The notes below the pieces were generated by a model, which saw nothing but the letters and a program-made list of their open reading frames with translations, was not told the origin of the DNA and ran no database searches. A stretch of 64,000 nt of DNA. Source: Photorhabdus laumondii subsp. laumondii (GTDB lineage Bacteria > Pseudomonadota > Gammaproteobacteria > Enterobacterales > Enterobacteriaceae). Positions 12,141-18,559 of the stretch are shown here, in pieces. Both the position numbers and the translations under genes were made by a program. The stretch spans positions 3,038,001 to 3,102,000 of the forward strand of contig NZ_CP024901.1 in NCBI RefSeq assembly GCF_003343245.1, read 5' to 3'. Numbering within the stretch: position 1 is the first letter of the stretch; each line of letters opens with the position of its first letter.

Positions 12141-12191
12141 ATTGATAAAACAATTTTACGCTTTTATACTCAATACATTCCCTATTATAAA

Positions 12192-12318
12192 TATACCCGT
12201 CATCTTTCAAGTTGCCTCTTTGTTGGCTGCACTCACTCACCCCGGTCACATAGTTACCTATGCTCCCGGGGATTCGCTCCCTTGCCGTCGCGATGCATCT
12301 TGAAATCTATAAGGTATA
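12192..12318. repeat. ERIC-type repeat, copy 5
   Basis: Full-length 127-bp copy between punC and cfa. Confidence 0.9.
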
Positions 12319-13646: not shown

Positions 13647-13651
13647 TTAAC

Positions 13652-13778
13652 TATACCCGTCATCTTTCAAGTTACCTCTTTGTTGGCTGCACTCACTCAC
13701 CCCGGTCACATAGTTCTCTATGCTCCCGGGGATTCGCTCCCTTGCCGTCGCGATGCATCTTGAAATCCATAGGGTATA
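13652..13778. repeat. ERIC-type repeat, copy 6
   Basis: Full-length copy starting 6 bp after the cfa stop. It abuts and shares its terminal TA with copy 7. Confidence 0.9.
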
Positions 13779-13859
13779 TATCCGTCATCTTTCAAGTTAC
13801 CTCTTTTGTTGGCTACACTCCCTTGCCGTCGCGATCCATCTTGAAATCCATAGGGTATA
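13777..13859. repeat. ERIC-type repeat, copy 7 (centre deleted, tandem)
   Basis: An 83-bp head-to-tail neighbour of copy 6. It keeps both ends but lacks the core palindrome, like copy 2. Confidence 0.85.
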
Positions 13860-13887
13860 AAAGCTACAGGTTTCCACTGTAGCTTTT
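13859..13887. terminator. Bidirectional terminator between cfa and the minus-strand peptidase-like gene
   Basis: A perfect 11-bp stem (AAAAGCTACAG/CTGTAGCTTTT) with a 7-nt loop. The stem itself supplies U-runs in both directions. Confidence 0.8.
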
Positions 13888-13949
13888 AGTCAATACAACA
13901 AACATATCCATGTTTAACTCTAATTTTAAAAAGATCGCTCTGTTTTCCA

Positions 13950-14927
13950 CTAACGGAAATCATTCACATAACCATTATCAAAGAAGACCGTTTGATCAAA
14001 TGCTATTTTTCCACCAGAAAATATCAAATCTAAATGATGACTCCCTTTTACACCACCACCCAAACCAAGATGTAAACCAGGATGTCGTTCTTCAAAACCA
14101 GCATTTCTGCCATAAAGCGCTTTCACACCCCTGTTAGTCCCAATACCAAACTCTTCAACAATTCGGTTTCCGTGATTATGGTTTAGGTATAAATTAAAAT
14201 CCCGACTAAATTCATCATGTTCACAATCAAATCCAATAATTTCACCCTCTTTTATATTTATAGTCATCATATCATTGACAACCCCATACTTTATGGCAAA
14301 GGGTGCCGTACTCAAAAAAGTGCCACTAAAGCTGACACTACCGTTAAGGCGCTTTATATGGCTTGCTATTTCCCCAGGAATAACATCAAGATTTCCACTG
14401 CCATCAATGGAAGTCCACTTATGGTCTTTTTCTAAATAACCTACAATTGAGTTCCCTTTATTATCTGTATATTGAATCTTCTGTGATCGATTTGATAATT
14501 CAATAAGTTTTTTGTTCCTTTCTGTTATTGATGCTGGTGGCTCGCTAAATGCTTCAATGAAATGTGGGCCATAATCTTTAAACAATACAGATTTCTTCCA
14601 TGATTCAGTAATAAAGCTTCTTATTTTGGTTAGATATTCTGGCCCTTGTGGAGATGCATTCTTTAATGTTGATGATGCGTAAAGAAAAATAAACAAATCA
14701 CAATCAGATATTTTTTGTTTTATATCGTCCGGTGATGTTTTTTCTAAAAAAGCAAAATCAGACTTTACATCGAAATTCTTCTTATACATATACATCTTCT
14801 GCGCAATATCGCTATGCTCAGTATCAGATCCGATAAATATTTTTATACATTCACCATTTCTTACTTTATCCGAAATTGCGGGATGATGTGATAAACAACA
14901 ATACATATTTTCAAGACTTTTATCCAT
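13950..14927 (-). CDS. M29/NicX-like metallopeptidase-family protein (putative peptide-processing enzyme)
   Basis: A 325-residue cytosolic protein without a signal peptide. The C-terminal half has the ordered features of aminopeptidase-T (M29)/NicX-like metal-dependent hydrolases: PGE (Glu185), EEFGIGTN (Glu258/259), HLGLG (His286) and HHLD (His298, Asp300). These residues match the spacing of metal ligands in that family. The N-terminal 150 residues are variable (IFIGSDTEHSDIAQKMY...). Start ATG 14927 has AGGA 8 nt upstream. It lies 84 bp downstream of a 37-codon peptide gene on the same strand, with a strong hairpin between them, in an insertion between cfa and riboflavin synthase. Context suggests it cleaves or modifies that peptide. 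This is inference; a stand-alone aminopeptidase or a ring-cleaving enzyme is also possible. Confidence 0.6.
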   Translation of the reverse strand: MDKSLENMYCCLSHHPAISDKVRNGECIKIFIGSDTEHSDIAQKMYMYKKNFDVKSDFAFLEKTSPDDIKQKISDCDLFIFLYASSTLKNASPQGPEYLTKIRSFITESWKKSVLFKDYGPHFIEAFSEPPASITERNKKLIELSNRSQKIQYTDNKGNSIVGYLEKDHKWTSIDGSGNLDVIPGEIASHIKRLNGSVSFSGTFLSTAPFAIKYGVVNDMMTINIKEGEIIGFDCEHDEFSRDFNLYLNHNHGNRIVEEFGIGTNRGVKALYGRNAGFEERHPGLHLGLGGGVKGSHHLDLIFSGGKIAFDQTVFFDNGYVNDFR

Positions 14928-14948: not shown

Positions 14949-14975
14949 TAAGTAAGGGGTGACTCCCCTTACTTA
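14949..14975 (-). promoter_or_regulatory. Intercistronic hairpin between peptide gene and peptidase-like gene
   Basis: A perfect 11-bp stem: TAAGTAAGGGG pairs with CCCCTTACTTA around a TGACT loop. No T-run follows in the minus direction (AAAAATAAA), so it looks like an mRNA-stabilising or partial-termination hairpin that sets precursor:enzyme ratio. Confidence 0.6.
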
Positions 14976-15011
14976 TATAGTATTATAAAGAACCTTAATT
15001 ATAAAAAACCG

Positions 15012-15125
15012 TTAAGGCCAAAGTGCGGTACCAAAAGGTACGACAGCTTGTGCATTCATCATTTCAACAGCATCATCATGTGTAGGTTCTTCAAGCCATT
15101 CATCTAACTCAATCGGGTTTTCCAT
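15012..15125 (-). CDS. 37-residue acidic peptide, candidate RiPP precursor
   Basis: A short frame with ATG at 15125 preceded by AGAGG. The product begins MENPIELDEWLEEP, continues acidic through THDDAVEMM, and ends in a hydrophobic, uncharged tail AVVPFGTALWP followed by the stop. An acidic leader-like N terminus with a short distinct C terminus, a gene immediately upstream of a peptidase-family enzyme, and an intercistronic hairpin are typical of ribosomally made, modified peptide operons. I do not recognise the sequence. It could instead be a regulatory or antitoxin-like peptide. The predicted promoter lies in the AT-rich 15126-15255 interval. Confidence 0.55.
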   Translation of the reverse strand: MENPIELDEWLEEPTHDDAVEMMNAQAVVPFGTALWP

Positions 15126-15255
15126 AAAAAAGTAACCTCTAAAAATATCATCACGGGGATTAACCTGCGCTTTACGAGAAAACGCATTAACACAATAATA
15201 ACAATATTAACTATATTAGTTAACATTACATGCAAAACACTGCAATATAAATCAC

Positions 15256-15290
15256 AAAAAGGAGCATCGATGGGTTCAATGCTCCCTTTT
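15256..15290 (-). terminator. Terminator downstream of riboflavin synthase
   Basis: A GGAGCAT/ATGCTCC stem (15261-15267 with 15279-15285) followed on the minus strand by TTTTTG. It separates the riboflavin synthase gene from the downstream peptide gene. Confidence 0.8.
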
Positions 15291-15333
15291 AGCACACGGT
15301 TAATTCTGTTCGAAAGCGAAAATCGGGGTCCCC

Positions 15334-17782: not shown

Positions 17783-17859
17783 GCGTCCGTAGCTCAGTTG
17801 GTTAGAGCACCACCTTGACATGGTGGGGGTCGGTGGTTCGAGTCCACTCGGACGCACCA
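17783..17859 (+). tRNA. valV: tRNA-Val (anticodon GAC)
   Basis: A 77-nt cloverleaf with an encoded CCA end. The acceptor GCGTCCG pairs with CGGACGC, the anticodon loop is CCTTGACATGG giving GAC, and the T-loop is GGTTCGAGTCC. It is near-identical to E. coli valV/valW and in the same position after mdtK. Confidence 0.98.
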
Positions 17860-17907: not shown

Positions 17908-17984
17908 GCGTCCGTAGCTCAGTTGGTTAGAGCACCACCTTGACATGGTGGGGGTCGGTGGTTCGAGTCCACTCGGACGCACCA
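17908..17984 (+). tRNA. valW: tRNA-Val (anticodon GAC), second copy
   Basis: Identical 77-nt sequence to the first tRNA, 48 bp downstream and co-transcribed. It also encodes CCA. Confidence 0.98.
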
Positions 17985-18232: not shown

Positions 18233-18276
18233 TTATTGATTTGCCGAACACTGAAAAGTTACAGATTAATCGTATG

Positions 18277-18389
18277 TATACCCTATGGATTTCAAGATGC
18301 ATCGCGAATCCCCGGTCACATAGGTAACTATGTGACCGAGGTGAGTGAGTACAGCCAACAAAGAGGCAACTTGAAAGATAACGGGTATA
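18277..18389. repeat. ERIC-type repeat, copy 8 (rearranged core)
   Basis: A 113-bp copy in the pykF 5' leader. About 14 bp of the usual left arm is missing, and the centre is a perfect CGGTCACATAG-GTAA-CTATGTGACCG palindrome. Confidence 0.85.
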
Positions 18390-18559
18390 TAAGCTCGCAT
18401 AATTACATGTGCCTAACCTCACACGAAAAGCACCGCATGTCTTCCACGCCACTTGTCCTTAATGATGTTGCGCAACGTTCAACACCACATGGTATCTGCG
18501 CAAACCATAAAGTTGGCGACTCACTATTTTATCCAATTAAAACCTGTAGATAGATTGTC

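Follow-up and report, generated by a model that had tools for sequence, protein, structure and literature searches.

A stretch of 64,000 nucleotides from Photorhabdus laumondii subsp. laumondii (contig NZ_CP024901.1, positions 3,038,001 to 3,102,000; hereafter the window) raises the question of what is made by two open reading frames (ORFs) encoded on the minus strand between cfa and riboflavin synthase. One has 37 codons and lies upstream, and the other, 84 bp further on, codes for a protein of 325 amino acids. In Escherichia coli K-12 cfa and ribC are direct neighbours, 39 bp apart, which marks the pair as an insertion at this place. A preliminary description of the sequence had reported both ORFs, their spacing and the insertion as we find them, and had taken the pair for an unrecognised cassette making a ribosomally synthesized and post-translationally modified peptide (RiPP). 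We consider it moderately probable that the pair is a minimal two-gene RiPP-like cassette, in which a protein of the type of CgnB, known from crocagin biosynthesis, processes a nearly invariant precursor peptide.

The short gene is real and is under purifying selection. Among 13 Photorhabdus peptide sequences (78 pairs; loci L001 and L014-L026 minus L018, which is cut by a contig end, with the duplicates L002-L012 excluded) the mean nonsynonymous divergence (dN) is 0.019 and the mean synonymous divergence (dS) 0.318, a dN/dS of about 0.06. The peptide gene also stands beside the enzyme gene much more often than chance would allow: when 93 loci (L001-L093, several of which are one genome fetched twice) were searched in six frames for the C-terminal motif of the peptide, 89 of them gave exactly one match, near the enzyme gene and on its strand. 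The four misses, L006 and L018 (P. noenieputensis) and L013 and L064 (Xenorhabdus), are contig-end cuts; in P. noenieputensis the contig begins 166 bp before the enzyme gene and a copy of the peptide gene lies near the end of another contig, and in the two Xenorhabdus loci the contig stops within or just past the enzyme gene. In the window the ATG of the peptide gene is preceded by the Shine-Dalgarno-like site AGAGG, and by eye such a site stands at 23 of 26 peptide starts, the exceptions being L023, L072 and L095, where a longer start was taken. A chance ORF beside an ordinary M29 aminopeptidase might be suspected from the shortness of the ORF and from the many public names that call the enzyme a leucyl aminopeptidase. 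This is refuted by the purifying selection, by the co-occurrence of the two genes across genomes and by the window enzyme itself, for which a Pfam search returned no M29 family at E 10. Neither the pair nor its region yielded anything in Pfam, NCBIfam, PADLOC or Rfam. A Pseudomonas relative of the peptide had 28 database matches, none with a Pfam domain, and all 16 that are named are called 'hypothetical protein'. A match of the peptide to YnfS (E 0.28) is weak and was read as chance.

That the peptide gene should recur beside the enzyme gene in other genomes had been set beforehand as the check on the linkage, and it does recur. When the relatives of the enzyme were taken as the best 80 of 240 loci, the peptide motif was present in 78 of these 80, both misses lying at contig ends. 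Across the genome samples, a full-length enzyme was accompanied by the peptide in every genome except one whose contig ends in the enzyme; the Pseudomonas and Photorhabdus samples hold one genome per species. In Pseudomonas, 72 of 199 genomes have a full-length enzyme and the same 72 have the peptide, on the same contig and strand with a gap of 70-105 bp by match ends (Fisher p 3e-54, a statistic that ignores kinship); a further genome, G823, has a 28-residue enzyme match only and no peptide. Among 150 Burkholderiaceae genomes, 11 have the pair, which occurs 13 times in all as a full-length enzyme with an adjoining peptide, G1019 and G1136 having two pairs each; Burkholderia sp. D-99 carries two pairs of differing type (L037, L068). 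Xenorhabdus has the enzyme in 9 of 30 genomes and the peptide in 8, the ninth enzyme (G023) running off its contig, and all 12 Photorhabdus genomes have both, with one enzyme match per genome. Among 369 genomes of the same class, G375 alone besides the window's own has an intact enzyme, and the peptide is present there. A sample of 398 genomes of the phylum gave eight matches, seven of them full-length: the window's own, G023 and five others, all five with the peptide. The eighth, G789, is a distant relative without a peptide. Other distant relatives, in frames of 377-415 amino acids, occur in Pseudomonas (G826, G896) and Burkholderiaceae (G1108, G1126) and have no peptide of their own. Two loci with damaged enzyme genes were also seen. 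In G084 (L096/L097) the enzyme is degraded into two pieces, one with stop codons, and its loci lack the peptide motif. In P. akhurstii DSM 15138 (L026:8759-9321) the enzyme gene is split by an insertion encoding an IS200-like transposase (Pfam Y1_Tnp, E 2e-44), and the peptide gene is intact.

In fold the enzyme belongs with M29, NicX and CgnB, in keeping with the M29/NicX-like motifs noted in the preliminary description: structural comparison shows a fold in common with CgnB and CgnE, at 12-14 % identity in structural alignment. A 31-row profile of the enzyme searched against PDB sequences with hmmsearch gave no CgnB/E match at E 1. Motifs and their spacing predict a two-metal site made of E186, E259, E280, H286, H298 and D300; the motifs listed earlier are all present, the first Glu being residue 186 and not 185. 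Judged in the same way, the six positions that answer to the metal ligands of CgnB (PMC10070186) are intact in 30 of 31 rows. One family member, P0060, has lost four of the six (E259S, E280Q, H298P, D300K) and recalls CgnE, the metal-less partner in crocagin. The closest protein matches of the window are from P. luminescens (92 % identity) and P. temperata (89 %). Many homologues, including some that are 83-92 % identical, carry a precomputed match to PF26231, the model of the CgnB/CgnE family. With the enzyme family already labelled crocagin CgnE/B in UniProt/Pfam and its relatives mined in 2023 (PMC10070186), the word unrecognised in the preliminary description does not fit the enzyme and may hold for the peptide. 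The distant relatives named above (L103/G789, G826, G896, G1108, G1126) form a sister group between the CgnB-type family and Pfam M29; L103 matches M29 at E 5e-4, below the cut-off, and the enzyme family of the pair at E 4e-19.

The peptide is most conserved where a typical diversified RiPP varies, namely in the core. The preliminary description had expected a conserved leader and a variable core; here conservation is instead densest in the C-terminal segment AVVPFGTALWP. Over 21 chosen peptides, among which the row of L069 begins one codon early, the columns W10, M23, P30, T33 and W36 (window peptide numbering) are invariant, the first residues vary most, and two conserved blocks can be seen, parts of the N-terminal half being conserved as well. 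Variants of the core are VPVGTAMW in most Xenorhabdus and VIPFATALWA in one clade, and the peptides end in WP, WPV, WPL, WPI, WPF, WPH, WA or WAV, that is, in L/M/F-W-P/A, often with one more residue. A bacteriocin with a variable core was considered and dropped, the core being nearly invariant. The peptides have 37-56 amino acids and are acidic, with a net charge of about -5 to -10.5; a charge match with a basic enzyme was sought and not found, 30 of 31 enzymes being net negative.

What we have, then, is a short gene under purifying selection linked to the gene of an enzyme, and we infer that the peptide is that enzyme's substrate. The precursor encoded by the short gene would be recognised by its acidic N-terminal part (around E-L-x-x-W-x-E-E-x-H ... 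A-V-E-M-M) and would carry the nearly invariant C-terminal segment, in which one or two residues follow the Trp. The single-copy CgnB-type protein would bind the peptide by its N-terminal part and hold the C-terminal segment at a two-metal site, where the segment could either be hydrolysed, releasing a short C-terminal product, or undergo elimination or ring closure with the help of the metals, in the way proposed for CgnB. Since the product would be nearly the same in all species, it is likelier to be used, once released, as a signal or as a cofactor-like or housekeeping metabolite than as a diversified antibiotic. We modelled peptide and enzyme as a fusion in which the stop codons are read through, with the peptide present in only 7 of 34 alignment rows. 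In this model the peptide forms helices at residues 7-11 and 17-26, blocks predicted at a local distance difference score (pLDDT) of about 68-77, and residues 32-56, which comprise its C-terminal end and most of the spacer, have a pLDDT below 50. The model is in line with docking of the peptide by its N-terminal part, short of proof.

The order of the two genes and the hairpin between them bear on how the peptide acts. A short ORF upstream of the enzyme gene in most loci, with a conserved C-terminus near its stop codon and a hairpin in between, could be a cis-acting leader or a ribosome-arrest peptide controlling translation of the enzyme. In five of eight Xenorhabdus genomes (G991, G995, G999, G1004, G1005), however, it is the enzyme gene that comes first, and the peptide gene follows some 200-300 bp downstream on the same strand; in the other three it is upstream. 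The peptide is therefore not a cis leader of the enzyme and acts in trans. Ribosome arrest depends on the last codons, and the end of the peptide varies from WP to WAV; parts of the N-terminal half are conserved too. The leader or arrest-peptide explanation, largely refuted by the gene order, was set aside, and we give it hardly any weight.

A spacer hairpin was found in all 12 Photorhabdus spacers. Of 72 distinct spacers, those that our script could delimit, 58 fold so well that at most 3 of 60 dinucleotide shuffles hold a 46-nt stretch folding equally well. The hairpin usually stands between both genes, and across genera the sequences are unrelated and the position is alike. A strong spacer hairpin is lacking in L063, L065, L067 and L091, and only one of four Chromobacterium spacers passes. 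Hairpins between precursor and enzyme genes are a known means of securing an excess of precursor in RiPP operons. In the cassette that we favour, the hairpin after the peptide gene would likewise keep the peptide in excess over the enzyme.

An excess of peptide would equally suit an inhibitor, and the peptide may not be the substrate of the enzyme but a small protein that partners it, as an inhibitor, activator, chaperone or something like an antitoxin, with its C-terminal segment entering the active-site cleft to switch an enzyme that has another substrate. This fits the conservation in both halves of the peptide, the one-to-one pairing, which holds even in genomes with two enzymes, and the distribution and tree, which indicate transfer between distant genera. 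Against it, no PADLOC defence model matched and the related CgnB/E proteins act on a precursor (PMC10070186); we regard a regulatory partner as a rather unlikely, if serious, alternative. The P. akhurstii locus, with its intact peptide gene and split enzyme gene, is neutral between the two explanations. As the main alternative to the substrate role, a regulatory partner accounts for much of the same evidence, and an invariant C-terminus suits either.

It may also be that the enzyme does no more than bind the peptide, like CgnE, and hand it over to an oxygenase or some other tailoring enzyme not linked to the pair. CgnE itself seems non-catalytic and apparently brings CgnA to the oxygenase CgnC (PMC10070186), and in the Enterobacterales genome CwR94 a 306-aa protein encoded downstream has some likeness to 2OG-Fe(II) oxygenases, a weak match that stays under the Pfam cut-off. 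CgnE is short of two metal ligands, whereas nearly all enzymes here keep the full set of positions, and we think a mere presenter improbable. Among 31 loci, no gene beyond the pair is common across genera, with one exception: all five loci of the clade with VIPFATALWA peptides (L065, L066, L068, L069, L071), and only these, encode a protein of about 480 amino acids directly downstream of the enzyme. Its Pfam matches are weak: TPR in all five, for the most part under the cut-offs, and GT9, which passes its cut-off in L069 alone. A predicted glycosyltransferase is carried by the crocagin-like clusters, crocagin's own excepted (PMC10070186). These neighbours come from ORFs picked by length in 31 of the 80 loci, with wrong-strand ORFs in the GC-rich Burkholderia, and only the enzyme and third-gene clusters were used. 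A few other gene clusters are common to two or three genera, in scattered places. No radical-SAM enzyme was among the neighbours identified.

A bolder form of our favoured explanation, which we put forward tentatively as a possibility, is that of a new minimal RiPP class. One CgnB-type two-metal protein alone, unaided by any dedicated peptidase, oxygenase or exporter, would turn the VVPFGTALWP segment into a small molecule that is conserved and serves as a signal or cofactor, hardly differing between Photorhabdus, Xenorhabdus, Pseudomonas, Burkholderia, Chromobacterium and others. The enzyme tree (39 chosen rows, some joins depending on long branches) groups Chromobacterium with Xenorhabdus, away from Photorhabdus, and has one clade of Burkholderia, Paraburkholderia, Klebsiella and another member of the Enterobacterales. 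Labels combining taxon and peptide type need 9 changes on it, against a minimum of 8. These groupings and label changes suggest that the two genes travel together from one genus to another. On plasmids the enzyme was found in 3 of 72,556 records, all from Burkholderia and of 3.2-3.5 Mb.

The features of the locus are collected in Table 1. Because a terminator-like hairpin ends riboflavin synthase, the peptide and enzyme genes probably form a transcription unit of their own. Of the terminators that the preliminary description had placed on both sides, this one stands as a terminator-like hairpin; the other is a hairpin that the terminator scan did not list, possibly a terminator shared with the convergent cfa. 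Promoter-like sites barely exceed the shuffled number in our scan (25 found, against a mean of 19.4 and a standard deviation of 4.4). The two genes on each side have the Pfam names MFS transporter, CMAS (cfa), lumazine-binding (riboflavin synthase) and MatE. Window positions 12188-12318, 13648-13778, 13811-13874 and 18271-18391 hold direct and inverted copies, two of them 95 % alike, of a repeat some 130 nt long; by eye, a part of this repeat also occurs between the two genes in L024 (P. heterorhabditis). Two near-identical tRNA-Val genes with anticodon GAC lie at 17783-17859 and 17908-17984.

Table 1. Features of the peptide-enzyme locus, in window positions
Feature	Position	Strand	Basis and remarks
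37-aa peptide gene MENPIELDEWLEEPTHDDAVEMMNAQAVVPFGTALWP	15012..15125	-	ORF; acidic N-terminal part, highly conserved C-terminal segment AVVPFGTALWP
Enzyme gene, 325-aa protein of CgnB/CgnE (crocagin) kind, M29/NicX fold	13950..14927	-	ORF
11-bp spacer hairpin between peptide gene and enzyme gene	14949..14975	-	Fold; putative role in transcript processing or as partial terminator
Promoter-like site TTAACT-17-TATTAT upstream of peptide gene, TG before second hexamer	15195..15223	-	Consensus scan only
Terminator-like hairpin closing riboflavin synthase	15255..15291	-	16 pairs, then T-rich tail
Hairpin downstream of enzyme gene, -16.0 kcal/mol	13855..13900	-	Absent from terminator-scan list

Among known systems the pair is closest to crocagin from Chondromyces crocatus, with which it shares the fold of CgnB/CgnE (PDB 6zsv, 6zsu; PMC10070186), the six CgnB ligand positions and an adjoining short precursor-like gene with Trp in its end. 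Crocagin has two copies, CgnB and CgnE, whereas the pair has one, and no second, metal-less copy was found in the 12 Photorhabdus genomes. The crocagin cluster also has the oxygenase CgnC, the hydrolase CgnD and the methyltransferase CgnL, none of which lies beside the pair in the window (two genes on each side; the rest of the genome was not searched). CgnA has 21 amino acids, a basic N-terminal part and a Tyr-Trp end, in contrast to the longer peptides of the pair with their acidic N-terminal part and other C-terminus. The M29 aminopeptidases AmpT, AmpS and PepS differ from the pair's enzyme, which has no Pfam M29 match, is shorter and has a partner peptide gene. The 2,5-dihydroxypyridine dioxygenase NicX holds one iron by H265, S302, H318 and D320 (PMC7910607); by motif and spacing, H265 and S302 apparently correspond to Glu and His in the enzyme of the pair.

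Relatives of CgnB/E were reported in 2023 from about 100 genomes of several classes; single-copy genomes keep the metal site, and single copies were used for mining putative precursors (PMC10070186). The main text of that study does not name Photorhabdus, Xenorhabdus, Burkholderia or Pseudomonas; its supplement, with the precursor candidates of single-copy relatives, was not covered, and the pair may already be among those candidates. Among the papers listed by literature searches no other study of CgnB/E relatives turned up, and the C-terminal motifs of the peptide (PFGTALW and variants) were not found in the text of 5.39 million open papers. With the relatives and the mining of precursors known and the motif absent from that literature, we judge the pair a variant of the known CgnB/E kind. 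It suggests that a two-gene system for a small peptide product has been overlooked, and the product would be conserved among common bacteria associated with plants, soil and insects. Pyrroloquinoline quinone (PQQ) and mycofactocin are RiPPs whose core does not vary; like these, the pair has a short conserved precursor-like gene beside its enzyme and would give one product across species, and it differs in the absence of a radical-SAM enzyme from its identified neighbours. In the one study of CgnB/E-type proteins that was found, they work as two copies and with an oxygenase (PMC10070186). Here one copy, its predicted metal site intact, is joined to one near-invariant peptide, which makes the pair a tractable two-component system for learning the role of the metal site in the CgnB/E family.
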